From the NCBI RefSeq assembly GCF_000591055.1, contig NC_020388.1, forward strand, positions 2,480,001 to 2,544,000: 64,000 nt of DNA, in the 5' to 3' direction. The first letter of the stretch is position 1, and each line of letters starts with the position of its first letter. The notes under the pieces were generated by a model. The model did not search any database and had not been told where the DNA came from. It was given only the letters and a program-made list of their open reading frames with translations. Made by a program: the position numbers and the translations under genes. Source of the DNA: Natronomonas moolapensis 8.8.11. Its GTDB lineage: Archaea; Halobacteriota; Halobacteria; Halobacteriales; Haloarculaceae. Shown in pieces: positions 21,428 through 35,496 of this stretch.

Positions 21428-21760
21428 GTGTACGACCGTCCGCCGACGTCGGTACCGTCGCTCTCGGTCGAAGCGTCGCGCGAAAAAATGAAGCCGCACC
21501 GCGAAACCGCACGGCACAGCACAGCACCGCACCGCAAAGGGGAGACTGAATCCCGGCCGATCCGGGAGTCAGTTACTTGTCGGCGTTAGTTGGCGTTCCG
21601 TCGGGCTGCCAGCAGTGCAGCGCCGAGGAGTGCCACGAGCGCGAGGACCGCACCGAAGCCGGGCTGACCCTCGGGTTCGGGCGTGTCCGTCGGCTCTTCG
21701 GTCGGTTCGGCCGTCGGTTCCGGCGTCGGTTCCGGCGTCGGTTCCGGCGTTGCCGTCGGT
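21428..21760. repeat. Copy B of the csg 3' repeat (at the intact gene)
   Basis: This includes the last about 170 bases of csg and its downstream flank. It matches 20356-20660 in the same orientation, with a few substitutions and short indels in the gcacc repeats. Confidence 0.75.
21483..21567 (-). terminator. Putative csg transcription terminator
   Basis: On the reverse strand the csg stop is followed by a GC hairpin (CCCGG-ATCGG-CCGGG, 21552-21566) and, about 65 bases on, a TTTTTT run at 21483-21488. Archaeal terminators are mostly T-runs, so the T6 is the probable stop site. The same hairpin and T6 occur in the downstream copy at 20407-20490. Confidence 0.4.
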
Positions 21761-24700
21761 TCCGGCGTCGGTTCCGGCGTCTCGGCGGCCATCTCGCCGA
21801 AGAGACCGTCGTCGGACTGGACAGTCTCGCCCGCAACGCGGAACTCGACCGTCGCTTGGTCGCCAGCCTCGCGGTCACCGAAGTCGAAGGTGGCCTCGAA
21901 GCTGCCGTCGTCGGAGATGTTCACATCCTGGCTCTCCAGGAAGCTCTCCGTCTCACCGCGCTGGCTCACACGCACCGTTGCGTCCGAACCAGGCGCGACG
22001 TTCGTCGTGCCCGACACGGTCGTCTCGTTACCCGCCGAGATCATAACCGTCTCGTTCTGCATATTGTCGAACTCGGCCGACCGCTCCTCGAAGGTGAAGG
22101 AGGCACTGGTCACAGCGCCTTCTCCAGCTGCGAAGTACGGATAGGCGTCGTCTTGATCGTCGACGTCGCCGGAGTCGCCACCGGCCTCGCCGTGCGGACC
22201 AAGATCATCGACACTACCGATACCGGGGTCGGTGATGCTGCCAGGCGCGGTATCCTGTGCCGTGCCGGTGTTAATACCGGATGTGGCACCTTCGTTGAAG
22301 AACTCGAACCGATCATCGCTGTCGGTCTCGTATTCGAGTGCGACATCGAAGTCCGTGTCTGCGTTGAGTTCACGCGTGAACGGTTCGGCGTCGGAGTCAA
22401 CGACGATGTACAGTTCGCCGTTCTCGTTGTCGACGAGAATATCAATCTCGTTGCTCGCCGCGTTCGCGAGATCAATCTCGTTCTCGCCTTGGTTGCCGAT
22501 ATCGTCGGAACTCTCGAACGTCAGGGAGATACCTTCACCGTCACGGTCAACGTTGTCGACCGTTCCGCTGCTGGGGTTCAGCGCGAGTGCGTCAAGCGTG
22601 CTCGGGCTGAAGCTCTCCTCTTCGTCAGGGATGACCGGATCGAAGTTACCTTCGACCGCGACCATGTGGCCGTAGAGACCGGAGGCTTCGATCTGGATGA
22701 CGACCTTGTCGTCAAGGGCGACGTCCTCGCTCTGCGTGAGCGGGCTGTCTTCGACGAGTGCGGAGATCGTGTCGTACTCGTCAGCGTTTTCTTCAGGTCC
22801 AACCCAGACGTTCGTCTCGCCGAGGCTGGGGTTCTGGAGATCGATCGTTGCGAAGCCATCCTCTTCGTCGAGGCTGGACTCGCCGTCTTCGGCGACGAAC
22901 TCAGTCGAGCCAGTCGCGGCCAGACTGTAGTCCGTCGGCTGGATCGGTCGGATCAGCTGTGTGGTCGGATGGTCGTTGTTGTTATCCAGCGTGTCGAGTT
23001 CTTCGAGGTACTGCGTGAAGGAAATCTGGTTGTTACCACCCAGATCAGCGTCGTCGTAGAACTCAGGCTGGATCTCCCAGTTACTCACTGCATCACCGTA
23101 GACATCGAGCCCGTTGTTGTTGGTAGTCGTGTCAGTCGGATCTTCGCTGAGCGTCTGAGCGATCAGGCTCTCGGCGATATCGTCCTCGGAGTTGAGAACG
23201 TTCTCGCTGGTGCCCGTGCCGATCAGGCGCGTGTTGATCTGGAAGGTGACTTCGTCGTCGTCGTCATCGTCTTCGATGTAGATGACGTCGACGAAGTCGG
23301 ATTCTTCGTCACCGAACTGGAGGAGTGCTTCGTCAGTATCCTCCATGTCGGCGGTCACGGTGACGATGTCACCGGCAGATTGCGTGTAGACGCTTTCGCT
23401 GAAGTCGATGGTGACATCCTCGTCGGCCACGGTAGCCGTCGAGGAGCTAGTCGCCTCGGTGTCGTGGACATCGAAGCTGAACTCGTATTCAGCTGCGTCT
23501 TGACCGATGAACGAGACGTCCGTGTCATCGACATCTTGGTTCTGGTAGAACAGGACCTTCTCGTCGGAGTCGTCCTCATCGTCTTGGTAGAAGAGGACAT
23601 TGAGAGGGCCGGCAGCCGAGTCGCTGAGGCTGGGGCCAGCGACGTTTTCGATGTCGTAGTTGGCGTCGCCACCACCAGCGAGGTTGACGCTCAGCTGATC
23701 GGCACTATCGGCATCAGTAGTGGAACTGTCTGCGAGGGCACCATCCTGGAGCGCTTCGAATGCGCTGTCGTAGGTGTTCCCGTCGCCCGTGCCACCGTGG
23801 GTGATGGTCACCGAACCGTTGTTCTGGATATTCGCGTCGCCGTTCTGAACGAGTGCGTTGCTGACGAAGAGGTTGAACAGTTCGTCGTTGTCGAGGTCGC
23901 CGTTGGCGGTCACGTTGGTCGTGTAGGTGCCACGGCTGGAGTCGACCTCGAATTCGACGAGGCTGTCCTCGTAGTCATCGCTGATCGCCGGCAGGTCTTC
24001 CTCTTCGGGGTCGAAGGTGGTCTCGAGGTCTTGGACGGTAATCTCGAAAGTGCCGCTACGTTCGAGTTGTCCGTCGGTCGGGAGGCCGTTCCCCGCGACG
24101 TAGTAGTTGTCAGCGTCGAGGTCGGACGTTTCAGACTCGAGAATGGCTGTCTCATCAGTATCAGAGGACGTCAGACCGGAGACGCCATCAATACCGTTGT
24201 TGAAGCTTTGGTCGGAACGGACCGTAGTCGCATCAGGCGTTCCGGATCCGGTTGTAACGGTGATGTCGCCGACATCCTCACCAGCGACATTGCTGTCGAG
24301 GTAGCCGTTACTGAGTGCGAACTTCAGCGTACCGACGGAGTACTCGTCGATGAAGTTCTGGACGTTGGTCGTCGGGTCGAACGCAGTCGTGTCGAGTTCC
24401 TTTTCGAAGCGGCTGTCATCGACGCTGCCTGCATCGAAGGCCTCGACACCACGGAGTTCGTAGCCGCCGGTGTCCTGGATATCCGGACCGAAGACGTAGA
24501 CATCCTGACCCTGGTAGGCCAGCGAGCCGTCGGTCGCGTAGGTCAGGTCAGCTGTTGACTGAGCCGCCTGAACTCGGAGAACCGGGTTGACAGTCTGAGA
24601 GGTTCGCCCCTCTGTAAGCGTGAGCACGAACGGACTATCGCCGGCGTTAGAGTCGGCGACTGAGAACGTTGTTTCACCAACGGCATCCGTGTTTTTCGTA

Positions 24701-25380
24701 TCTCCATCGGTATCCGTGCCGTCGTCAGCACCATCAGTATTCAGCGTGACCGTGATGCCGCTGATTCCTGCGTCCTGGCTGTCGGTCGCCGTGACGGTGA
24801 ACGTGGACTCTTCACCTTCACCGACGGTCGACTCGGCCGGGGACACGTCGAGTTGGACCGGCGTAATATCGTAAGCGTCGGAGTTCGTGTTGGAGTCCCG
24901 AGTTGTGCCTCCATCGACAGTCTCAACCGTCAAGCTATTTCCAGTACTTGCAGACCCGGCATTCTGGACGCCAGTCGTTCCGTCCCCAACATTAAGGGTG
25001 AACGAACTTGCGGTCGAAACAGTTTCCGTAGCAGACAAGCTGACGGATAGACCGTTGGTGATCGTGGTAACTCCGGAGACCGTTCCAGAAAACCCGCTGC
25101 CAGTACTTACTTCATTGGCACTGGCTATAGCAGCTAGGTTTTGTGGTGTCGCATCAGGGAATGTGATGTCGACTTGGTCAAAGTCACTGTCTGTGGTAAA
25201 CGATACGTCATACTGCGTCGTTTCACCTGCAGTAGTAACCTGCAGTGAAGCGTCCGCATTTGTAGTAGCCTGCGCAGCGGCTCCACCAGCAAACGCTACT
25301 GTCCCTGCGAAGACCCACAGGAACATGAGCGCTGCCAGGAAGACGGCGCGCAGTTTCTTGTTGTTATAGTTTCGTGTCAT
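21586..25380 (-). CDS. csg: S-layer glycoprotein (major cell-surface glycoprotein)
   Basis: This encodes 1,264 residues. The N-terminus TRNYNNKKLRAVFLAALM is the diagnostic S-layer signal of haloarchaea, with cleavage probably after GGAAAQ. The mature protein is extremely acidic (long Asp/Glu runs), with several Asn-x-Ser/Thr sites for N-glycans. Near the C-terminus a Thr/Pro/Glu repeat region (TPEPTPEP) precedes PEGQPGFG plus a hydrophobic helix and Arg-Arg, the PGF-CTERM signal cut by archaeosortase and replaced by lipid. ATG 25380 was chosen because the signal starts there. A long leader and AT-rich promoter lie upstream. The glycan genes on both sides of the window probably act on this protein. 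Confidence 0.93.
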   Translation of the reverse strand: MTRNYNNKKLRAVFLAALMFLWVFAGTVAFAGGAAAQATTNADASLQVTTAGETTQYDVSFTTDSDFDQVDITFPDATPQNLAAIASANEVSTGSGFSGTVSGVTTITNGLSVSLSATETVSTASSFTLNVGDGTTGVQNAGSASTGNSLTVETVDGGTTRDSNTNSDAYDITPVQLDVSPAESTVGEGEESTFTVTATDSQDAGISGITVTLNTDGADDGTDTDGDTKNTDAVGETTFSVADSNAGDSPFVLTLTEGRTSQTVNPVLRVQAAQSTADLTYATDGSLAYQGQDVYVFGPDIQDTGGYELRGVEAFDAGSVDDSRFEKELDTTAFDPTTNVQNFIDEYSVGTLKFALSNGYLDSNVAGEDVGDITVTTGSGTPDATTVRSDQSFNNGIDGVSGLTSSDTDETAILESETSDLDADNYYVAGNGLPTDGQLERSGTFEITVQDLETTFDPEEEDLPAISDDYEDSLVEFEVDSSRGTYTTNVTANGDLDNDELFNLFVSNALVQNGDANIQNNGSVTITHGGTGDGNTYDSAFEALQDGALADSSTTDADSADQLSVNLAGGGDANYDIENVAGPSLSDSAAGPLNVLFYQDDEDDSDEKVLFYQNQDVDDTDVSFIGQDAAEYEFSFDVHDTEATSSSTATVADEDVTIDFSESVYTQSAGDIVTVTADMEDTDEALLQFGDEESDFVDVIYIEDDDDDDEVTFQINTRLIGTGTSENVLNSEDDIAESLIAQTLSEDPTDTTTNNNGLDVYGDAVSNWEIQPEFYDDADLGGNNQISFTQYLEELDTLDNNNDHPTTQLIRPIQPTDYSLAATGSTEFVAEDGESSLDEEDGFATIDLQNPSLGETNVWVGPEENADEYDTISALVEDSPLTQSEDVALDDKVVIQIEASGLYGHMVAVEGNFDPVIPDEEESFSPSTLDALALNPSSGTVDNVDRDGEGISLTFESSDDIGNQGENEIDLANAASNEIDILVDNENGELYIVVDSDAEPFTRELNADTDFDVALEYETDSDDRFEFFNEGATSGINTGTAQDTAPGSITDPGIGSVDDLGPHGEAGGDSGDVDDQDDAYPYFAAGEGAVTSASFTFEERSAEFDNMQNETVMISAGNETTVSGTTNVAPGSDATVRVSQRGETESFLESQDVNISDDGSFEATFDFGDREAGDQATVEFRVAGETVQSDDGLFGEMAAETPEPTPEPTATPEPTPEPTPEPTAEPTEEPTDTPEPEGQPGFGAVLALVALLGAALLAARRNAN

Positions 25381-25848: not shown

Positions 25849-25868
25849 TTTTTAGGTTGTCCTAAAAA
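25849..25868. promoter_or_regulatory. Iron-box palindrome 1 (DtxR/SirR/Idr-type operator)
   Basis: TTTTTAGG-TTGT-CCTAAAAA has perfect 8-base arms. It lies 10-30 bases before ATG 25879 and overlaps the only AT-rich TATA-like stretch (GTTTTTTAGG), so a bound repressor would block the basal factors. Three more copies occur at 27103, 31639 and 33803. TTAGG/CCTAA cores are typical of archaeal DtxR-family metal regulators. Confidence 0.7.
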
Positions 25869-25878
25869 GAGGGGCGTA

Positions 25879-27084
25879 ATGCAATCGCGTCCGAACCGAG
25901 CGGAGCGAGACGTCTGCGTCATCGTCCCGACGATACGGGAGTACGACTGCGTTCGAGCGTACGTCGAGAACGCACGCGAGCACGGCTTCGACACCGACCG
26001 GCTGTTCTTCGTCCTCGTCACCGAGGACTTCTGCGACACCGAAGCGATGCGGGCGATGCTCGAGGACCTCGACGTGGCGGGAGCCGTCTTCGACGGCACG
26101 CGCCGCGAGGAGTGGTACGAGACCCACGGAGTCGAAGAGTACGCCCACGTCGTCCCGGCCGCGAGCCACGCCGAGACGAGCTTCGGACTGCTGTACATGT
26201 GGGTCGAGACGGCTTTCGAGTACGGCGTCTTCATCGACGACGACACGCTTCCCCACGACGACACGGACTACTTCGGCCGCCACATGGCGAATCTCGCCTT
26301 CGGCGGCGAGGTCGAGCGCGTCCGATCCGACGAACAGTGGGTGAACGTCCTCTACCAGAACGCCGACGAGCACGGTCTGTACCCCCGGGGGTATCCCTAC
26401 TCGGCGATGAACGAGACCGTCGAAACCGACACCGTCGCACTCGACTCCGGGGAGGTCGTCGCTTCCCAGGGGCTGTGGACGAACGTCCCCGACCTCGATG
26501 CGGTTCGGATCCTGATGGACGGCGACCTGGAGGGGCAGGCCCAGACGCGGACGACCGCGGCCGACTTCGAACGGGACTTCGTCGCCGCCCGCGGGAACTA
26601 TCTCACGGTGTGTTCGATGAACCTCGCGTTCCGCCGGGAGGTGATCCCCGCGTTCTATCAGCTCCCGATGGACGACAACGAGTGGGACGTCGGCCGCTTC
26701 GACGACATCTGGAGCGGCGTCTTTCTCAAGCGAGCCTGCGACCTCCTCGGCACGCGGCTCTACAACGGCCGGCCGCTCTGTGAGCACAACAAGGCCCCGC
26801 GGTCGACGTTCGACGACCTCCACAACGAGGTCGCCGGCCTCGAGCTCAACGAACACCTCTGGGAACTCGTCGACGGCGTCGAACCGGACGTCGACGAGTC
26901 CGAGGACGCGGCCGACCGCTACGCGGCGGTCTTCGAGGCGATGGCACAGCGACTCGCCGAGGGCGAGTTCGAGGCGTACCGAAACGGCGAGTTCTTCGTC
27001 CACGTCGGCGAGTACATGCTCGAGTGGCTCGACTGTCTCGACGCCCTCGAGACGTCGAGAGCGCCCGCCGCGGCCGGCGACTGA
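25879..27084 (+). CDS. GT75/RGP-like (reversibly glycosylated polypeptide, UDP-sugar mutase-like) glycosyltransferase
   Basis: This encodes 401 residues. It starts with RDVCVIVPTIREYDCVRAYV, then has VFIDDDTLPHDD with an Asp-Asp-Asp metal/nucleotide-sugar site at about residue 120, YPRGYPYS, NLAFRREVIPAFYQLPM and FDDIWSGVFLKRACD. The order (N-terminal Pro-Thr-Ile-Arg, triple Asp, Phe-Asp-Asp-Ile-Trp) matches the reversibly glycosylated polypeptide family, whose plant members interconvert UDP-arabinose ring forms. The archaeal function is unknown. It is the first gene of the iron-box island, with its own operator at 25849-25868. Assignment is by motif order only. Confidence 0.55.
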   Translation: MQSRPNRAERDVCVIVPTIREYDCVRAYVENAREHGFDTDRLFFVLVTEDFCDTEAMRAMLEDLDVAGAVFDGTRREEWYETHGVEEYAHVVPAASHAETSFGLLYMWVETAFEYGVFIDDDTLPHDDTDYFGRHMANLAFGGEVERVRSDEQWVNVLYQNADEHGLYPRGYPYSAMNETVETDTVALDSGEVVASQGLWTNVPDLDAVRILMDGDLEGQAQTRTTAADFERDFVAARGNYLTVCSMNLAFRREVIPAFYQLPMDDNEWDVGRFDDIWSGVFLKRACDLLGTRLYNGRPLCEHNKAPRSTFDDLHNEVAGLELNEHLWELVDGVEPDVDESEDAADRYAAVFEAMAQRLAEGEFEAYRNGEFFVHVGEYMLEWLDCLDALETSRAPAAAGD

Positions 27085-27089
27085 AGCGA

Positions 27090-27120
27090 CGAATATAAGT
27101 ACTTTTAGGTGGACCTAAAA
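27090..27120 (+). promoter_or_regulatory. Iron-box palindrome 2 with TATA box (binding-protein operon)
   Basis: TATA-like AATATAAG (27092-27099) is followed by TTTTAGGTGGACCTAAAA (27103-27120), which ends three bases before ATG 27124. The operator covers the expected transcription start. The same order (ATATAAGT, operator, ATG) occurs on the reverse strand at 33796-33829. Confidence 0.75.
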
Positions 27121-27123
27121 AAC

Positions 27124-28263
27124 ATGACCGAGAAACGATCACACGAACGGACGACAGAGCGGCGGCGGTTTCTCGCGACGGCTGGCGCACTCGGCGTGGC
27201 CGGTCTCGCCGGCTGTTCGGACTCGCTCGGCGGCAACGGCTCGGGCAACGGCGACACCACCGACTCGCCCGTCGGCCAGATCGGATCCGGCCGCGAGGGC
27301 CGCGACGCCCCCGGCGGGACGCCGATGAGCGAGATGCCGGAGCTGTCGGGCGAACTCACCGTCTACTCCGGGCGCGGCGAGTTCCTCGTCGGCGACCTCA
27401 TCAGCTTCATCGACGACCGCTACGACGACCTCGAGTTGACCGTCCGCTACGGCAGTTCGACCGACCTCGTCAACCAGATCGTCAACGAGGGCGACGGCTC
27501 GCCCGCCGACGTGTTCTACTCGGTGAACGCCGGTTCGCTCGGCGCGCTCGCAGACGAGGGTCGGGCCGGGACTCTCGACGACGGCGTCGCCGGGCTGGTC
27601 CGCGAGGAGTTCCGCACGGACGAGTGGATCGGGACGTCCGGACGCGCCCGGACGGTGCCGTACAACACCGACTCCTTCGCCGCCGCCGACATGCCCGATG
27701 ACGTCATGGCCTACCCCGAGGCGTTCGACGGGGACCTCGGGTGGGCCCCAGCCTACGGCTCCTGTCAGGCGTTCGTCACCGCCATGCGGCTCATCGAGGG
27801 CGAGGAGGCGACCCGCGAGTGGCTCGAGGCCGTCCTCGATGCTGGGATCACCGGCTACCCCGACGAGTTCGCCGCCTGCCAGGCGATCGCCGACGGCGAG
27901 ATCGACGCCGCGTTCGCGAACCACTACTACATCCAGCGCGTCCTCGACGGCAATCCGGAGGCCTCGCTCGCGACCGCTTTCACCTCCGGCGACGCCGGTG
28001 CCGCGTTCAACGTCGCGGGCGCGGCCGTCGTCGACACGACCGACGACGAGAGCCTCGCCAACGGCTTCGTTCGGCACCTGCTGTCCTCGGAAGCCCAGGA
28101 GTACTTCGCCACGTCGACGTTCGAGTACCCGCTCGTCCCCGGCGTCGAGCCAGTCGGCGACCTCCCCACGATCGACGAACTCGACGTCCCCGATATCGAC
28201 CTCTCGCAGCTCTCGGAACTCGAACAGACAGTCGATCTCATGCGCGACGTCGGCGCACTCTGA
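27124..28263 (+). CDS. Fe(III) ABC transporter substrate-binding lipoprotein (FbpA/AfuA-like)
   Basis: This encodes 379 residues. The twin-arginine signal ERRRFLATAGALGVAG with an Ala-Gly-Cys lipobox at about residue 35 indicates Tat export and lipid anchoring. The bilobal type 2 periplasmic-binding fold shows ELTVYSGRGEFLV, VRYGSSTDLVNQI, GDGSPADVFYSVNAGSLGAL, ARTVPYNTDS and DAAFANHYYIQRV; the Tyr-Tyr pair is the usual Fe(III) ligand in this family. It is placed directly under iron-box 2 and 10 bases before the GT39-like gene. The matching permease is at 33892. No ATPase gene is present in the window. Confidence 0.85.
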   Translation: MTEKRSHERTTERRRFLATAGALGVAGLAGCSDSLGGNGSGNGDTTDSPVGQIGSGREGRDAPGGTPMSEMPELSGELTVYSGRGEFLVGDLISFIDDRYDDLELTVRYGSSTDLVNQIVNEGDGSPADVFYSVNAGSLGALADEGRAGTLDDGVAGLVREEFRTDEWIGTSGRARTVPYNTDSFAAADMPDDVMAYPEAFDGDLGWAPAYGSCQAFVTAMRLIEGEEATREWLEAVLDAGITGYPDEFAACQAIADGEIDAAFANHYYIQRVLDGNPEASLATAFTSGDAGAAFNVAGAAVVDTTDDESLANGFVRHLLSSEAQEYFATSTFEYPLVPGVEPVGDLPTIDELDVPDIDLSQLSELEQTVDLMRDVGAL

Positions 28264-28273
28264 TCGGGACAGC

Positions 28274-30418
28274 GTGACGCCCCCCCGAGACCGGCTCCGG
28301 CGACGGATATCGAGGGCCGTCCGCGAGGCGACCCGTCGCGTCGGTGTCCCACGACTCGTGGCCGCCGTGGTCGTCGTCGCCGCCGCAGTCGCCGTCTTCG
28401 TCGTCTCGAGTACGGTCTTCGCGTACCACTCGAGCAACCACGACGAGGGCGTCTACCTGCTGCAGGCGGCGCTGCTGCTCGAGGGGCAACTCGAACTCCG
28501 GGCGGGGGAGTTGGCCGGCGCGTTCCGGCCGTGGTTCTTCGCCGAGGACGGCGGCCGGCTCTACCCCAAGTACACCCCGGTCCCGGCGGCGCTGTTCGCG
28601 GTTTCGATGGCGCTGTTCGGCGAGCCGCGGGTGACCCTCGCCGCCGTCGCCGCGGCGAACGCCGGTCTCACGTACCTGCTGGCGGCGACGGTGTTCGACC
28701 GCCGGGTCGGTGCCGTGGCCGCGGCGCTCTTTTCGGCCTCGCCGCTGGCGCTCGTGACGACGTCGGCGTTTCTCCCCTACGCGCCGACGACGGCGCTGAA
28801 CCTGCTGTTCGCCGTCGCGTACCTGCGGGGCGTCCGCGACGGCTCGGCCGCGGCCGCGGGGGTCGCCGGCCTCGCGATCGGAACCGCCTTTTTTGCCCGC
28901 CCCTACACCGCGGTGCTGTTCGCGGCCCCGTTCGTCGCCCACGCGCTCTACTCGGTCGCCCGGTCGGTGTCGGCCGACGGGATCGCGCTCGCGGGACCGG
29001 TCCGGAGACAGGGCCTCACGGCGCTCGTCGGCCTCGGGTTCGTCGGCGTGACGCTCGCGTACAACGTCCGGATGACCGGGTCGGCGGTCCTGTTCCCCTA
29101 CGAGGCGTTCGCCCCCGCGGACGGTCCCGGGTTCGGTCCCCGGGAGATACTCGGCCACTCGGTCGTCTACACCCCCGAGTTGGCGCTGACGGCCACCGGC
29201 TACGCCCTCCGCTATCTCGCGACGCGGTGGTTCGTCGCGGGACCGATCGGGACGACGGCCGCGCTCGCCGGCCTCGCGCTGGTCGCCCGCCGCTGGATCG
29301 ACGGACGGGACGACGGCGACGCCTTCGAGCGCCGTGCGGGGCTGGCCCTCGCCGGCCTTCTCGTCAGCGTCACCGCCGGCAACGTCGCCTTCTGGGGCAA
29401 CTACAACGTCCTCGCGACGATGTCGGACCCCACCGACGGCCTCGTCTCGCAGTTCGGCCCGTTCTATCACTTCGACCTGCTCGTCCCCCTCTCGGTGTTC
29501 GCCGCCGTCGCCGTCGTCGCCGGGTGGGATCGGGGGGTTCCGGCCGTCCGATCGTCGATCGAGCGCCGCGGCTCACGGCGGGTGGCCCGTGCTGCGGTTG
29601 CGCTCCTCGTCCTCTCGGCGCTCGTCGGCGCCTCGGTCGCCGCGGCCGCGGCCATTTCGGCCCCGCTGGACCGGAACGCGGCCCATACCGACAAGTACGC
29701 GACCGCCTACGAACCGGTCGAGGCGGCCGACCTCGAGGACGCAGTGGTCTTCGTCCCGACGCCGTACGGCGACTGGCAGAACCACCCCTTCCAGTACCTC
29801 CGCAACGACGGCGGCCTGGACGGCTCCGTCGTGTACGCGCTCGATCGCGACCCCGGCGGCGACTTCGCCGTCCTCGATGCCTATCCCGACCGGACGCACT
29901 ATCGCTTTGCCTACCGGGGCGAGTGGACGCCGAATCCGGACCGACACGTCACGCCGACACTCGAGACGCTCGAGCTCCGGCGCGGCACGGCGCTGGCGGG
30001 CGAGACAGTCGTCGGCGTCCCGCCGCGGGTCGCGCGCGCGACCGTTCGCCTCGAGAGCGAGACGGGGGCGAGTTCGGAGTACGCGGTGTCCGACCCCGGC
30101 GGGTCGATCGCCGTACCCTGGTCGATCGACCGCGATGCGGCGCGCCTGACCGCGGCCGACGACGCCGTCCGGGTCGGCGGCACCGACACCGTCGTCCTGA
30201 CCGTGACGCTCGTCCAGCCCGACGGCGGGACGCTCACCTACCGCCAGGAGACGACCGTCCGGACCGACCTCGAGGGTGTCGAGGCGGTGTGGCCGCCGGA
30301 GCGCTCCGTCTGCCCGCTCGTCACCGCCTGCGGCAACGAGGGGACGTACCTCCCCGACAGACCGGACGCCCACCGCGATGGCGTCTCCTTCGAGACGCGT
30401 CTGGGACCGCAGGCGTGA
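28274..30418 (+). CDS. Polytopic membrane glycosyltransferase-like protein (GT39/PMT-like)
   Basis: This encodes 714 residues from GTG 28274. A first membrane helix (VAAVVVVAAAVAVFVVSSTV) is followed by the loop SSNHDEGVYLLQAALLLEG, the Asp-Glu loop characteristic of GT-C enzymes such as protein mannosyltransferases and ArnT. About ten more helices extend to residue 460, and a soluble extracellular C-terminal domain of about 250 residues follows. It probably uses a dolichyl-phosphate sugar to glycosylate an extracellular target. It is only 10 bases behind the Fe(III)-binding protein gene, so it should share the iron-box promoter. The target could be that lipoprotein or a surface polymer; this is inference. 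Confidence 0.65.
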   Translation: MTPPRDRLRRRISRAVREATRRVGVPRLVAAVVVVAAAVAVFVVSSTVFAYHSSNHDEGVYLLQAALLLEGQLELRAGELAGAFRPWFFAEDGGRLYPKYTPVPAALFAVSMALFGEPRVTLAAVAAANAGLTYLLAATVFDRRVGAVAAALFSASPLALVTTSAFLPYAPTTALNLLFAVAYLRGVRDGSAAAAGVAGLAIGTAFFARPYTAVLFAAPFVAHALYSVARSVSADGIALAGPVRRQGLTALVGLGFVGVTLAYNVRMTGSAVLFPYEAFAPADGPGFGPREILGHSVVYTPELALTATGYALRYLATRWFVAGPIGTTAALAGLALVARRWIDGRDDGDAFERRAGLALAGLLVSVTAGNVAFWGNYNVLATMSDPTDGLVSQFGPFYHFDLLVPLSVFAAVAVVAGWDRGVPAVRSSIERRGSRRVARAAVALLVLSALVGASVAAAAAISAPLDRNAAHTDKYATAYEPVEAADLEDAVVFVPTPYGDWQNHPFQYLRNDGGLDGSVVYALDRDPGGDFAVLDAYPDRTHYRFAYRGEWTPNPDRHVTPTLETLELRRGTALAGETVVGVPPRVARATVRLESETGASSEYAVSDPGGSIAVPWSIDRDAARLTAADDAVRVGGTDTVVLTVTLVQPDGGTLTYRQETTVRTDLEGVEAVWPPERSVCPLVTACGNEGTYLPDRPDAHRDGVSFETRLGPQA

Positions 30419-30432
30419 GCGAGACGTAACGG

Positions 30433-30441
30433 TTATATAAA
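30433..30441 (+). promoter_or_regulatory. TATA box of the small membrane protein gene
   Basis: TTATATAAA lies about 25 bases before ATG 30462. No iron box is present here, so this gene is probably independent of its neighbours. Confidence 0.6.
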
Positions 30442-30461
30442 CCCCAGCTGGAATCCGAGAC

Positions 30462-30692
30462 ATGACCGGCCGTACCAGGGAGATCGACTACCCCAAAGTG
30501 ACCAAACGAAGCGTCGCGCTCGGCTTGGCCCTCTTTTTATTTGGCGGGCTCGGGCGAGGCCTCGTCCAGACGCTGGGAGTGCAGCTCCCGGCGTGGGAGT
30601 TGACCCTCCTGTTCGATCTGGAGGTGCTCGGAATCGGCATCTTCCTGCTGTCACCGATCGTATTCGGTGTCCTTCTGCCCCTCACCGAGTGA
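30462..30692 (+). CDS. Small conserved haloarchaeal membrane protein (DUF7860-like)
   Basis: This encodes 76 residues. IDYPKVTKRSVALGLALFLF, a central Leu-Pro-Ala-Trp-Glu and the end SPIVFGVLLPLTE resemble a small two-helix family common in haloarchaea. The function is unknown. A clear TATA box at 30433 supports ATG 30462. The DUF number is from memory and not certain. Confidence 0.7.
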   Translation: MTGRTREIDYPKVTKRSVALGLALFLFGGLGRGLVQTLGVQLPAWELTLLFDLEVLGIGIFLLSPIVFGVLLPLTE

Positions 30693-30816
30693 CCGGAGGC
30701 ACTCGAGCAGAGGGAGTCCCAGCGTCTAGTTGCGATCGGGTGTCAAAGTTCAAGGGGAACGTCGCGTGTTTTGCCGCGGGAAGAGAATCAGTCGTCCGGC
30801 CGAACCCACACCCGGC

Positions 30817-31608
30817 CTACCGGAACCGTTCTTCCAGTGAGACCTTCAGAATAGACTTCGCGATCGCGAGGCCGCCCTCGATCGGGTCGAGTTTCGTCTC
30901 GCCGGCGCGCTCGCGGTAGGCGATCGGGTGCTCGCGGACGTCGTAGCCCCGCATCAGCGGCCGGATCAGAAGCTCCGCCGAGAGACCGGTGTTCTCGGTC
31001 CACTCGATCGACTCGACGACCTCCCGGCGGTAGGCGCGCATCCCGGTCGTGGTGTCGTGGACGACCTCGCCCATCAGGGCGCTCGCGAGGGTGGCGAAGG
31101 CGCGGTTGCCGAAGCGGTTGAACGCGGGCATCGCCTCGGCCCCGTGGTAGAGGCGGTCGCCGCTGACCACGTCACACCCCTCGTTGATCGCCGCGAGGAA
31201 CGCCGGCAGTTGCTCCATCGGATAGGTGTCGTCGCAGTCGGTGGTGACGACGATCGGCCGATTCGGCGCGAGGATGGCCTCCCGGACCGCGACCCCGTAG
31301 CCCTGCGGTGCCTGTTCGATCACGCGCGCGCCGTGCTCGCGGGCGATCTCGGGCGTTCGATCCGAGGAGCCGTCGACGCAGACGACCTCCGCGTGGCCGT
31401 CGGTGACGGTCTCGATGTCGTCTAGCACCGTCCCGATCGCCGCCTCCTCGTTGTAGGTGCCCATCACGACGCTGACGTCCTCGAAGGTGTACTCCTCGGG
31501 GTCGTCGCCCGTCGTGTCTCCGGCGTCGATGGCCGTGCCCGCGGCGGCCGTGTCGGCCTCGTCGCGTCTGTCCTCGCGTCCGTTCGCCCGCCGTTGCATC
31601 GAACTCAT
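30817..31608 (-). CDS. GT2 dolichyl-phosphate sugar synthase-like glycosyltransferase
   Basis: This encodes 263 residues. After an Ala/Asp-rich start, the GT2 domain has VSVVMGTYNEEAAIGTVLDD, VVCVDGSSDRTPEIA and VTTDCDDTYPMEQLP (donor-binding Asp), then VSGDRLYHGAEAMP and DTTTGMRAYRREVVES. This is the DPM1 pattern of soluble dolichyl-phosphate mannose/glucose synthases, and no membrane helix is seen. It could make the lipid-linked donor used by the GT39-like enzyme at 28274, since both are under iron boxes. The gene starts about 30 bases after palindrome 3. Confidence 0.75.
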   Translation of the reverse strand: MSSMQRRANGREDRRDEADTAAAGTAIDAGDTTGDDPEEYTFEDVSVVMGTYNEEAAIGTVLDDIETVTDGHAEVVCVDGSSDRTPEIAREHGARVIEQAPQGYGVAVREAILAPNRPIVVTTDCDDTYPMEQLPAFLAAINEGCDVVSGDRLYHGAEAMPAFNRFGNRAFATLASALMGEVVHDTTTGMRAYRREVVESIEWTENTGLSAELLIRPLMRGYDVREHPIAYRERAGETKLDPIEGGLAIAKSILKVSLEERFR

Positions 31609-31638
31609 TACTACGTCTCTCTCCCGGGGACGCTTAAC

Positions 31639-31658
31639 TTTTTAGGTCTACCTAAAAA
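31639..31658. promoter_or_regulatory. Iron-box palindrome 3
   Basis: TTTTTAGGTCTACCTAAAAA has perfect 9-base arms with a 2-base centre, the strongest of the four. It sits between the stop of the GMC oxidoreductase gene (31662) and ATG 31608 of the GT2 gene, both on the reverse strand, so it controls the GT2 gene. Confidence 0.72.
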
Positions 31659-31661
31659 TTT

Positions 31662-33260
31662 TCAGAGGGCGTCTCGGACGTCCTCGGCCGCGCGCAACGC
31701 GAGCGCGGCGATGGTGAGCGTCGGGTTCACCGCGCCGCCGGTCGGGAACGCGCCGCTGGTGACGAGCCAGCAGTTCCCCAGGTCGTGGGTCCGGAGGTGG
31801 GGGTCGACGACGCTCGCGTCGGGGTCGGTGCCCATCCGTGTGGTGCCCATGTGGTGATACGCCGGGCCGGTGTCGTCGGGACCGACCTGCCAGGTGATCT
31901 CCGCACCGAGTTCCGAGAGGATCGACGCCTGGATCTCGTTGGCGCGCTCTATGCTCCGCAGCGCGCGGTCGCCGACGTTCCAGTGGACGTCCGGCACGGG
32001 GTTGCCGTGGTCGTCGGTCCGGTCCGGATCGAGGCCGACGTAGCTGTCCTCGCGGGGCAGTTGCTCGACGAGCGCGCCCATCCCGATGTGGGTGCCGTAG
32101 TCCTCGCGAAGCTGCTCTAGCAACTCGTCGCCCCAGGTGTCGGCCGACAGCGCCGCCTCGGCGGGCGAGGGACCGTCGTAATTGAAGAACTCGAGTTTGA
32201 ACGGCGCGATGTCCTCGTCGGCGTCGTCGTAGAACGCGTGGCTCTCGCTTGTCAGAAAGCCGACGTGGTTCTGGCGGGTCGGCTCCTCGAGGACCCCGCC
32301 GGTGCCCGCAAACAGGTGATCCATGAAGTACCGGCCGACGAGGCCACTGGAGTTCGCGAGACCGTCGGGGTACTGTTCCGACTCCGAGAGCAACAGCAAC
32401 CGTGGCGTCTCGACCCCGCCACAGGCGACGACGACGGCGTCGGCCGCCTGTCTGTGCTCGGTTCCGTCGGGGGTGGCGTAGACGGCCGCCCGAACCCGGT
32501 CGGCGTCGTGCTCGAGCCGCTGGACCGGGGCGCGGTCGATCACCGTCGCGCCCTTCGATTCGGCCCGCTCGACGTGGACCGTGGCGTCGTACTTCGCGCC
32601 CGAGGGACAGACCGGCTGGCAGGTGCCGTAGCCGACGCAGGCCGACCGGCCGTCGTAGGTCTCGGAGTTGCGGGCGTTCGGCACCGAGTGCATGTCGATC
32701 CCGAGCGCCTCGCAGGCCTCGGCGAAGAGGCCGTCGCTGTAGGAGGGGGGAAACGCCGGCATCGGGAACGGCTCCTCGCGTGGCGGGGCGTCGGGGTTGT
32801 CGTCCGCCCCGGCGACCCCGAGTTCGCGCTCGGCGGCGGCGTAGTGCGGCCGGAGGTCGGCGTAGTCGATCGGCCAGTCCGGGCCGACTCCGCGTTCGGT
32901 CCCGGAGTCGAAATCGTCCTCGTGGAGCCGCATCACCATCCCCTGCCAGTGCAGCGTCGAGCCGCCGATCCCCTTGATGCGGGCGTGGTTCAGGGGGTAG
33001 AACCACTCCCCGGAGGCCGAGTGCGCGTCGCGTTCGGGGTCGCCGTCCCACACGTCCGGGCGGTCGTAGGCGGGCCGGATCGCCCGTTCTTGACGTTCGA
33101 GCCGGTCGGCGGGGTCGAACCGCGGGCCGGCGTCGAGGACGACGACCTCGTGGTCGGCCGCCAGCCGGTCGGCGACGAGCGCGCCCGCCGGCCCCGCGCC
33201 GACGATACAGACGTCGGCGTCGGGGACGGGCGACCGATCCGTCGCCCCGCCGCCGTTCAT
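31662..33260 (-). CDS. GMC family FAD-dependent oxidoreductase (large subunit of a sugar/alcohol dehydrogenase)
   Basis: This encodes 532 residues. The FAD Rossmann motif VCIVGAGPAGALVADRLA lies at about residue 17. NHARIKGIGGSTLHWQGM is the GMC signature, CVGYGTCQPVCPSGAKYDAT is a Cys-rich loop, and the active-site His lies in AYHHMGTTRMG. The C-terminal GGAVNPTLTIAALALRAAE closes the FAD domain. This is the gluconate/sorbose dehydrogenase-like branch that works with a small subunit and usually a cytochrome. Its ATG overlaps the stop of the small-subunit gene (ATGA). The substrate is unknown. Transcription is from iron-box 4. Confidence 0.85.
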   Translation of the reverse strand: MNGGGATDRSPVPDADVCIVGAGPAGALVADRLAADHEVVVLDAGPRFDPADRLERQERAIRPAYDRPDVWDGDPERDAHSASGEWFYPLNHARIKGIGGSTLHWQGMVMRLHEDDFDSGTERGVGPDWPIDYADLRPHYAAAERELGVAGADDNPDAPPREEPFPMPAFPPSYSDGLFAEACEALGIDMHSVPNARNSETYDGRSACVGYGTCQPVCPSGAKYDATVHVERAESKGATVIDRAPVQRLEHDADRVRAAVYATPDGTEHRQAADAVVVACGGVETPRLLLLSESEQYPDGLANSSGLVGRYFMDHLFAGTGGVLEEPTRQNHVGFLTSESHAFYDDADEDIAPFKLEFFNYDGPSPAEAALSADTWGDELLEQLREDYGTHIGMGALVEQLPREDSYVGLDPDRTDDHGNPVPDVHWNVGDRALRSIERANEIQASILSELGAEITWQVGPDDTGPAYHHMGTTRMGTDPDASVVDPHLRTHDLGNCWLVTSGAFPTGGAVNPTLTIAALALRAAEDVRDAL

Positions 33261-33796
33261 CGCGGTCCCCGCTGGTAGCTCTCGGTGCCGCCGGGGTGGC
33301 CCTGGGGGTTCTCTATGCCGACGAGTTCGCCCCCGGTCGGGGAGGCGTACAGCGCGAGCAGGAGTTCGTTGACGACGTAATACCGGATCCGTTCTGCGGT
33401 CGTCCCGTCGGGAACCTCCTCGGCGGTGTCGGCACCGACCTCCCGGAGGAGCCGGTCGCGCTCGGCGGCCGACAGCGACGCGAAGCGGCCCCCGTACCAC
33501 GAGCCGGCCCAGTCGTCCAGTTCCTCGACCGCGTCCCGGATCCCCGCCGCGTGCTCGGAGTCGTCGAGCCGTCCCGCGAGGAACCCCTCGACGAAGCCCT
33601 CGGTCCCCGAGACGTCGCCCGGGTAGACGACCTCCGCGGCCGCCACGAACGTCGCTCGAATCCGATCGCCCGGGGGCTCCGGCCCCGGGTCCCGGTCGGG
33701 ACCGTCCGGTCGACTCCGGTCGGTCCCGAACGCGACCGCCCCGCCGGCGCCGAGCGCTACCAGGGCTGCGGCCGCGTCCCGCCGCGTCAGTTCCAT
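33257..33796 (-). CDS. Gluconate 2-dehydrogenase subunit 3-like small subunit
   Basis: This encodes 179 residues. A Tat-like start (MELTRRDAAAALVALGAGG) is followed by an acidic spacer and a helical domain with FVAAAEVVYPGDVSG and GTTAERIRYYVVNELLLALYASPTGGELVG. The end IENPQGHPGGTESYQRG is typical of the subunit 3 family. It is probably exported and should carry the GMC subunit with it. Stop and start overlap (ATGA) with that gene. It is under iron-box 4. Confidence 0.82.
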   Translation of the reverse strand: MELTRRDAAAALVALGAGGAVAFGTDRSRPDGPDRDPGPEPPGDRIRATFVAAAEVVYPGDVSGTEGFVEGFLAGRLDDSEHAAGIRDAVEELDDWAGSWYGGRFASLSAAERDRLLREVGADTAEEVPDGTTAERIRYYVVNELLLALYASPTGGELVGIENPQGHPGGTESYQRGPR

Positions 33797-33802
33797 ACAC
33801 CT

Positions 33803-33829
33803 TTTTAGGTAAACCTAAAACTTATATCC
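33803..33829. promoter_or_regulatory. Iron-box palindrome 4 with bidirectional TATA
   Basis: TTTTAGGTAAACCTAAAA (33803-33820) lies next to CTTATATC (33821-33828). Read on the reverse strand it is GATATAAG then the operator then ATG 33796, the same layout as palindrome 2. On the forward strand TTATATCC could drive the permease gene at 33892 with a leader of about 40 bases, so one operator may control both directions. Confidence 0.72.
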
Positions 33830-33891
33830 GTTGGTCCGATCCGATCCACATAAGGGCGGGAGCGACGTCTCCCCCGACAGTATCAACCGCC

Positions 33892-35496
33892 ATGGAACCA
33901 GAGAACGACTCCGCCGACGGGCGCGTGAACCTTCCGTTTTCGCCGGGGCTGACAGCGCTCTGTGGCGCGATCGCCGTTGCGCTCGTGTTCCCGCTGGCGT
34001 GGCTGTTCCTCGAGGTAGTGACCGTCGACCCGGGACGCGCGCGCGAACTCACGTTCAGTGCCGGCACCGCCGACGTTCTCCTCAACAGCCTGCTGTTGAT
34101 GATCGGCGTGACCGCCTGCTCGATCCTCCTCGGGGTGCCGCTGGCGTACCTGACCGTCCGAACGGACCTTCCCTTCCGGCGCTTTTGGTCGATCGCGGTC
34201 GCGCTCCCGCTCGTCGTGCCGAGTTACGTCGGTGCGTTCGCGTTCGTCTCCGCGTTCGGTCCCCAAGGCGAGTTCCGCGATTTCTTGGCCCCCTTCGGGG
34301 TCGAGCGGCTGCCGGAGGTCTACGGTCTGCCGGGATCGGTGCTCGTGATCACCCTCTACACCTACCCCTATGTTTATTTGACCACCCGGGCCGCGCTCGT
34401 TTCGTTCGACACGCGGCTGATCGACGCCGCACGGACGCTCAACTACGGTACGTGGAGTGGGTTCCGTCGGGTGACGCTCCCACAGATACGCCCGGCCATC
34501 GCGGCCGGTGGGCTTTTGACCGCGCTGTACGCTGTCTCGGACTTCGGCACGCCGGCGATCATGCGGCTGTCCGTGTTCACCCGGGAGATCTACGTCGAGT
34601 ACAACACCTTCGGCCAGGAGTACGCCGCGTTGCTCTCGATCCAGCTGCTCGTTCTCGTGCTCGCCGTGCTCGCGCTCGAGTGGGCGATCCGCCCGGACCA
34701 GAACGTTCGCGGTGACGACGCCGACCGCGCCGGGAGCCGGATCCGGCTGGGCCGCTTGCGCTGGCCTGCGGCGTTGCTTCCCGCAGGCGTCACCGCGATG
34801 GCGCTCGCCGTTCCGGTCTGGATCCTGCTGTTGTGGCTGTTCCGAACGGACGTCGCGAGGCGGCCCTCGATGGCGTTCGAGTGGACACAGGCGGTCAACT
34901 CCGTGTCCGTCGCCGCCACCGCCGCCGCCGTTGCGACGCTGGCTGCCCTCCCAGTGGCGTACTTCGCTGCGACCCGCGACTCCCGGCTCGGGACGCTCTT
35001 CGAGCGGGCCACGTACGTCGGCTTTGCCGTTCCGGGCGTCGTGTTAGGGCTCGCGCTGGTCTTTTTCGGCGCCGGCTACGTCCCGTGGCTCTACCAGACG
35101 CTGCCGCTTTTGATCTTCGCCTACGTCGTCCGCTTCGTGCCCCAGGCCGTCGGGACGACCCGAACATCGATCCTCCAGGTCGACTCGAAGCTCGTCGAGG
35201 CGGGGCGTACGCTCGGAGAGTCCCCGATAGGCGCGTTCCGACGGATCACGCTCCCGCACATCCGGTCGGGGCTCGTCGCGGGTGCTGCCCTCGTCTTCTT
35301 GACGACGATGAAGGAACTGCCGGTGACGCTCATCCTCCGGCCCTCGGGCTTCGAGACGATCGTCACCCAGGTCTGGCGGGCCCAAGAATCCGCGCTGTAC
35401 CAGTACGCCGCCGTGCCCGCGCTGATCTTGATCCTCATTTCGGGGCTCTCGATGGTCGTGATGCTCGCCCAGGAGGGCGAGGGACACGGGTTATGA
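33892..35496 (+). CDS. Fe(III) ABC transporter permease (FbpB/AfuB-like, fused two-domain)
   Basis: This encodes 534 residues with about 12 helices. It has two copies of the binding-protein-dependent transport inner-membrane domain. Each has the EAA loop: DAARTLNYGTWSGFRRVTLP at about residue 180 and EAGRTLGESPIGAFRRITLP at about residue 440. The first half also has VALPLVVPSYVGAFAFV, as in the ThiP/FbpB group. It should form the channel for the binding protein at 27124. The gene ends TTATGA, with ATG overlapping the stop as expected before an ATPase gene, but only nine codons follow. Confidence 0.85.
   Translation: MEPENDSADGRVNLPFSPGLTALCGAIAVALVFPLAWLFLEVVTVDPGRARELTFSAGTADVLLNSLLLMIGVTACSILLGVPLAYLTVRTDLPFRRFWSIAVALPLVVPSYVGAFAFVSAFGPQGEFRDFLAPFGVERLPEVYGLPGSVLVITLYTYPYVYLTTRAALVSFDTRLIDAARTLNYGTWSGFRRVTLPQIRPAIAAGGLLTALYAVSDFGTPAIMRLSVFTREIYVEYNTFGQEYAALLSIQLLVLVLAVLALEWAIRPDQNVRGDDADRAGSRIRLGRLRWPAALLPAGVTAMALAVPVWILLLWLFRTDVARRPSMAFEWTQAVNSVSVAATAAAVATLAALPVAYFAATRDSRLGTLFERATYVGFAVPGVVLGLALVFFGAGYVPWLYQTLPLLIFAYVVRFVPQAVGTTRTSILQVDSKLVEAGRTLGESPIGAFRRITLPHIRSGLVAGAALVFLTTMKELPVTLILRPSGFETIVTQVWRAQESALYQYAAVPALILILISGLSMVVMLAQEGEGHGL

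Follow-up and report, generated by a model that had tools for sequence, protein, structure and literature searches.

A 64,000-nucleotide stretch of the Natronomonas moolapensis 8.8.11 genome (NC_020388.1, positions 2,480,001 to 2,544,000; hereafter the window, whose numbering is used unless a genome position is given) carries an island in which components of an Fe(III) importer lie among genes for predicted sugar-pathway enzymes and an exported dehydrogenase. The island genes are referred to as RGP (a GT75/RGP-like protein), SBP (an FbpA-type Fe(III)-binding lipoprotein), GT-C (a polyprenyl-phosphate-sugar transferase), DPM (a dolichyl-phosphate hexose synthase), GMC (a flavoprotein dehydrogenase), Sub3 (a gluconate-2-dehydrogenase subunit-3-like protein) and PERM (the importer permease). 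From the letters of the window alone, an earlier sequence-only reading had linked iron uptake with glycan and oxidoreductase genes at this site. This link is borne out, as the gene set is kept box by box across the haloarchaeal class and the sugar genes are co-inherited with GMC, and the view that the island is one iron-controlled regulated unit is strongly supported by these comparisons.

Four exact palindromes at the starts of the island genes

A scan for the 18-bp palindrome TTTTAGGN4CCTAAAA (the box) revealed four zero-mismatch copies in the window, where 0.04 would be expected; none of 100 shuffles of the window reached four. In the whole 2.91-Mb genome, these four are the only exact matches. 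Box 1, TTTTAGGTTGTCCTAAAA (25850..25867), ends 11 bp before the RGP start, while box 2, TTTTAGGTGGACCTAAAA (27103..27120), is flanked by a TATA element and, 3 bp away, the start of SBP. Box 3, TTTTAGGTCTACCTAAAA (31640..31657), is found 31 bp before the DPM start, and box 4, TTTTAGGTAAACCTAAAA (33803..33820), separates Sub3-GMC from the divergent permease gene, at distances of 6 bp and 71 bp, respectively. The distances agree with the class medians (11 bp for RGP, 3 bp for SBP, 31 bp for DPM, 5 bp for Sub3 and 91 bp for the permease). The palindromes had been reported at 25849, 27103, 31639 and 33803, on or next to nearly every promoter of the island; all four are present, with two of the coordinates off by one, and five starts are boxed, but GT-C and GMC, both downstream of boxed genes (SBP and Sub3), have no box of their own in the window and a small DUF7860 gene has none either. 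The SBP and Sub3 boxes each follow a TATA-like element and precede the start codon, a position that would fit repression of leaderless transcripts.

Conservation of boxes and gene order across haloarchaea

We next considered 341 haloarchaeal genomes, which were searched for RGP and for the exact motif, and 121 loci, which were scored for boxes. RGP was found in 273 of the genomes and the exact motif in 268, compared with 5 for the reversed motif. Together with the window count and the genome scan, in which the 18-base motif was not equally common at random sites, this control rules out chance palindromes. A box stands just before RGP in 119/121 loci, before SBP in 103/120 and before DPM in 85/97, in many families. 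As the 121 loci include many from Halorubrum, 41 loci chosen for diversity were scored as well, giving boxes for RGP in 40/41, SBP in 35/40, DPM in 29/34 and Sub3 in 27/30 with up to three mismatches. No box was detected for GT-C, GMC or the importer ATPase in the 121 loci, as expected for operon-internal genes, and only 9 boxes fall inside island genes (992 kb) versus 449 elsewhere.

Gene order is likewise conserved in relatives. The order of the window, RGP-SBP-GTC/DPM-GMC-Sub3/PERM, was seen in 54 loci, while other families have RGP-SBP-PERM-ABC-GTC-(Sub3-GMC)-DPM; all of the genes can form one run, as in locus L069 (RGP-SBP-PERM-ABC-GTC-Sub3-GMC, with DPM convergent). SBP directly follows RGP in nearly all loci. 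Where GMC has been relocated, with or without Sub3, a weaker box with two to three mismatches precedes it in 18 of 20 loci. Boxes thus accompany moved genes and also occur on unrelated siderophore genes (see below), which rules out mere shared ancestry of one locus. We also detected a UPF0104 (LPG_synthase_TM) gene just before RGP in 69 relatives' loci, boxed in 55 of them. In the source genome, a 78-residue N-terminal fragment of a UPF0104 flippase-like protein is encoded at C1:395444-395677 (-), with a 1-mismatch box 67 bp upstream; the fragment represents a regulon gene that has decayed here and of which many relatives keep an intact copy. In one genome of the Halorubrum group (G206), the island is present twice, complete and boxed both times (L060 and L061).

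The box as an iron operator

In all seven IucA/C-carrying relatives examined, genes for IucA/C, aminotransferases and siderophore-type lipoproteins have boxes with 0-2 mismatches at their starts. Because the same box precedes siderophore genes in these seven relatives, we take it to be a DtxR-type iron operator, in line with the DtxR/SirR/Idr-type match proposed earlier. Genes for iron uptake and siderophores are likewise marked by TTAGG/CCTAA palindromes in the known haloarchaeal DtxR-type iron regulons (Idr, SirR, TroR), and the source genome encodes two full DtxR-family proteins, each with both DtxR domains, that are candidate cognate repressors. The island differs from these regulons in taking in the GT75 mutase, dolichyl-phosphate synthase, GT-C and GMC genes. 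Haloarchaeal "ferR" sites are mentioned in PMC11349517.

Weaker boxes were found elsewhere in the source genome. A 1-mismatch box precedes a ZIP-like transporter gene, and two adjacent 1-mismatch boxes (genome 2722763 and 2722797), 2-3 kb from a boxed ZIP-like transporter, precede the gene for an uncharacterised 267-residue protein. A 2-mismatch box at genome 1697433 is near a Dps-like ferritin gene. The genome has 10 sites with two mismatches versus 4 for the reversed control, and such sites are weak evidence by themselves.

A Fe(III) importer of the Fbp type

SBP (27124..28263, +) has a Tat signal, a lipobox and an NHYY iron-tyrosine motif. It matches solved ferric-binding proteins (E 9e-59), with NHYY aligned to their NNYY/NHYY, and the tyrosine pair is conserved in 119 homologues. 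By family search, PERM (33892..35496, +) is the FbpB-type fused permease of a Fe(III) ABC importer. The gene for the importer ATPase is unlinked here (genome 1693830-1695017), with a 2-mismatch box 23 bp before it at genome 1695041, and is linked in other families. The predicted importer resembles bacterial FbpABC/HitABC in the SBP fold, iron-tyrosine pair, fused permease, ATPase and presumed iron-dependent repression. It differs in the obligate dolichyl-phosphate glycosylation path and exported sugar dehydrogenase encoded alongside, as well as in the unlinked ATPase of the source genome.

Sugar-pathway enzymes

The gene names of the sequence-only reading hold in family searches, with two refinements: the GT75/RGP-like protein is mutase-like, and the protein called "GT39-like" is a GT-C enzyme nearest ArnT, STT3 and AftA in fold. 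RGP (25879..27084, +; Pfam PF03214), probably an NDP-pyranose (to furanose) mutase, matches MtdL (phmmer 4e-22). The catalytic residues of MtdL are D109-111, R159, D195, S228, R257, D260 and H287 (PMC9937993); DDD120-122, R170, D205, S246, R273, D276 and H303 of RGP align with these and are conserved among homologues, and the predicted RGP model matches MtdL with TM 0.75-0.80. Since all of the MtdL catalytic residues align and the model matches MtdL, RGP is more likely to make an NDP-furanose donor than to be a polymerising transferase. RGP thus shares its fold and all catalytic residues examined with GT75 mutases (plant RGP/UAM, MtdL, Hyg20), from which it differs in having only 23% identity, in its N-terminal part, in the nucleotide-base contacts and in its presumed iron control.

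GT-C (28274..30418, +; PMT_2 and DUF7846) begins 10 bp past the SBP stop. An acidic NHDE motif lies in its first outer loop, with N55, D57 and E58 invariant. The predicted structure (pLDDT 88) has STT3/AglB, ArnT and AftA as its nearest Foldseek matches, while the only link to GT39 protein O-mannosyltransferases is a PMT_2 match (8e-7), the fold being nearer to ArnT/STT3 than to Pmt. Like ArnT, AftA, PMT and STT3, the protein has the GT-C fold, NHDE in the first outer loop and a polyprenyl-phosphate sugar synthase as partner; unlike these, it has no sequence match in the PDB and carries a C-terminal DUF7846 domain.

The likely partner synthase is DPM (30817..31608, -), a GT2 protein scoring 405.8 bits against the haloarchaeal dolichyl-phosphate hexose transferase family of NCBIfam (NF041391), above the curated cut-off of 375. 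AepG (HAH_1206), a dolichyl-phosphate-GlcA synthase, was considered as a direct orthologue and rejected: AepG has C-terminal membrane helices, DADXQX and an N-glycosylation neighbourhood, whereas in the island DPM the motif is DCDDTYP and a C-terminal membrane-helix tail is absent. A flippase role for lipid-linked saccharides is predicted for the UPF0104 family (PMC5898192).

A probable exported sugar dehydrogenase

GMC (31662..33260, -) matches the FAD-glucose/fructose dehydrogenase type (E 9e-85). Three of its cysteines are conserved, align with the Fe-S region and presumably bind a 3Fe-4S cluster. Sub3 (33257..33796, -) has a Tat signal and is the probable export partner of GMC. As in FAD-glucose, fructose and gluconate-2-dehydrogenase complexes, a GMC subunit whose three cysteines align is accompanied by a small subunit with a Tat signal. 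The unit differs in that no cytochrome c electron-transfer subunit was identified among the island genes, the rest of the genome not having been searched.

Co-inheritance of the sugar genes and GMC

We compared 50 RGP-positive genomes from 42 genera with 68 RGP-negative genomes, 48 of which were identified by elimination from the RGP listing. GT-C was present in 50/50 RGP-positive genomes and in 0/68 RGP-negative genomes (with one weak 25% partial match), and island-type GMC was present in 49/50 and 2/68, respectively. The sugar genes and GMC are therefore kept or lost together, almost all-or-none. Approximately 15 genera hold both RGP-positive and RGP-negative species, indicating many separate events of joint loss or gain. 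FbpA-like SBPs with up to 51% identity are kept in RGP-negative genomes, and Fe(III) import alone thus does not explain the joint inheritance.

Two neighbouring genes were also noted. DUF7860 (30462..30692, +), between GT-C and DPM, had no match, at the cut-off applied, in any of the other 120 of these loci (121 in all), and its membership of the module is uncertain. A large S-layer-type surface glycoprotein (21589-25380, -; halo_sig_pep, BGTF domain, PGF-CTERM) is encoded divergently from RGP, and its signal motif is near RGP in the window only among the 121 loci.

Discussion

The gene content suggests the following model. When iron is sufficient, a DtxR-family repressor would cover the start regions of the RGP, SBP-GTC, DPM, Sub3-GMC and permease transcripts. 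As iron falls, the FbpABC Fe(III) importer and an outward glycosylation path would be made together: the GT75 mutase would make an NDP-furanose, the GT2 synthase would load dolichyl phosphate with the sugar, the lipid-linked sugar may be flipped by the UPF0104 flippase-like protein, whose gene carries a box in many relatives, and GT-C would pass the sugar on to an acceptor on the outer side of the membrane, where the FAD/Fe-S dehydrogenase, exported via Tat, would oxidise it. We infer that donor synthesis, lipid loading, flipping, transfer and outside oxidation form one pathway, with the sugar path and the dehydrogenase sharing one task that serves Fe(III) capture. Because the genes are linked under the same operator, a glycan step that serves iron capture explains the arrangement best, and we lean towards the view that the unit serves Fe(III) acquisition through an extracytoplasmic glycoconjugate. 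More tentatively, an oxidised surface glycan or a glycosylated lipoprotein might hold Fe(III) for SBP, which fits the chemistry. The fullest version, which we regard as rather doubtful, is that low iron leads to a surface furanosyl glycoconjugate being built and oxidised, which captures Fe(III) and passes it to the FbpA lipoprotein, replacing or supplementing a diffusible siderophore. One hint from outside is that in iron-starved Haloferax volcanii HVO_1859, which belongs to the UPF0104 family and may correspond to the island gene, was up 11.6-fold (PMC11349517).

Several points weigh against a role of the glycan in iron capture. SBPs persist where the sugar genes are missing, so that Fe(III) import as such can do without them. 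GMC occurs without RGP or GT-C in two genomes (G236, C3:311580-313160; G103, C15:132193-133761). An Fe-S enzyme would be a costly choice when iron is scarce, and the table of proteins changed at least 10-fold in PMC11349517 names, besides HVO_1859 as a candidate, no island protein.

Other explanations were weighed. Low iron might trigger surface glycosylation as general envelope remodelling (biofilm, aggregation, protection), with only the regulator shared with the importer. Surface glycosylation typically involves dolichyl-phosphate synthases, GT-C enzymes and flippase-like proteins (PMC5898192), and this explanation would also accommodate the FbpA-like importers that occur without sugar genes. 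We nevertheless consider it unlikely given that SBP and GT-C are 10 bp apart here, that SBP sits immediately behind RGP almost everywhere, that importer and sugar genes make up one tight run in other families and that the exported sugar dehydrogenase is lost along with the sugar genes. The dehydrogenase might instead mobilise iron itself, either by bringing Fe(III) into solution with free aldonic or keto acids or by donating electrons to it, with glycosylation only modifying and stabilising SBP and Sub3/GMC. The assignment of GMC to the FAD-glucose/fructose type with its three Fe-S cysteines and the Tat signal of Sub3 are consistent with such a role, and the ZIP-like transporter with a 1-mismatch box would suit Fe(II). 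However, reduction is hard to reconcile, as the main route, with an importer whose binding protein is of the Fe(III) type and has the tyrosine pair. GMC is also so strictly coupled to the GT75 mutase and GT-C that a common substrate is a better explanation than modification of proteins in general. We consider direct mobilisation by GMC improbable.

Finally, the boxes could sense manganese or another metal that the importer carries. The DtxR-family proteins of the genome do have MntR models as their top-scoring matches, with scores that stay under the cut-offs. The same box at siderophore gene starts in seven relatives and the match of SBP to solved ferric-binding proteins oppose this, and we judge another metal to be very unlikely.

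Fbp importers, DtxR boxes and each of the enzyme classes are already known. No report of their fixed union in one iron-controlled module was found in the literature searched on haloarchaea, iron and RGP/GMC, a coverage that did not include the main regulon papers. The near all-or-none pairing of the sugar genes with the oxidase suggests an undescribed form of sugar-assisted iron acquisition. Haloarchaeal iron uptake is known mainly via siderophores, and IucA/C siderophore genes are present in only 53/194 genomes and were not found in the source genome. Should the proposed function hold, the module would be more widespread in the class than the siderophore route (RGP in 273/341 genomes versus IucA/C in 53/194) and would tie glycosylation of the cell surface to the supply of metal. 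The RGP marker gene is present in H. volcanii, which makes the idea approachable in a genetic model.

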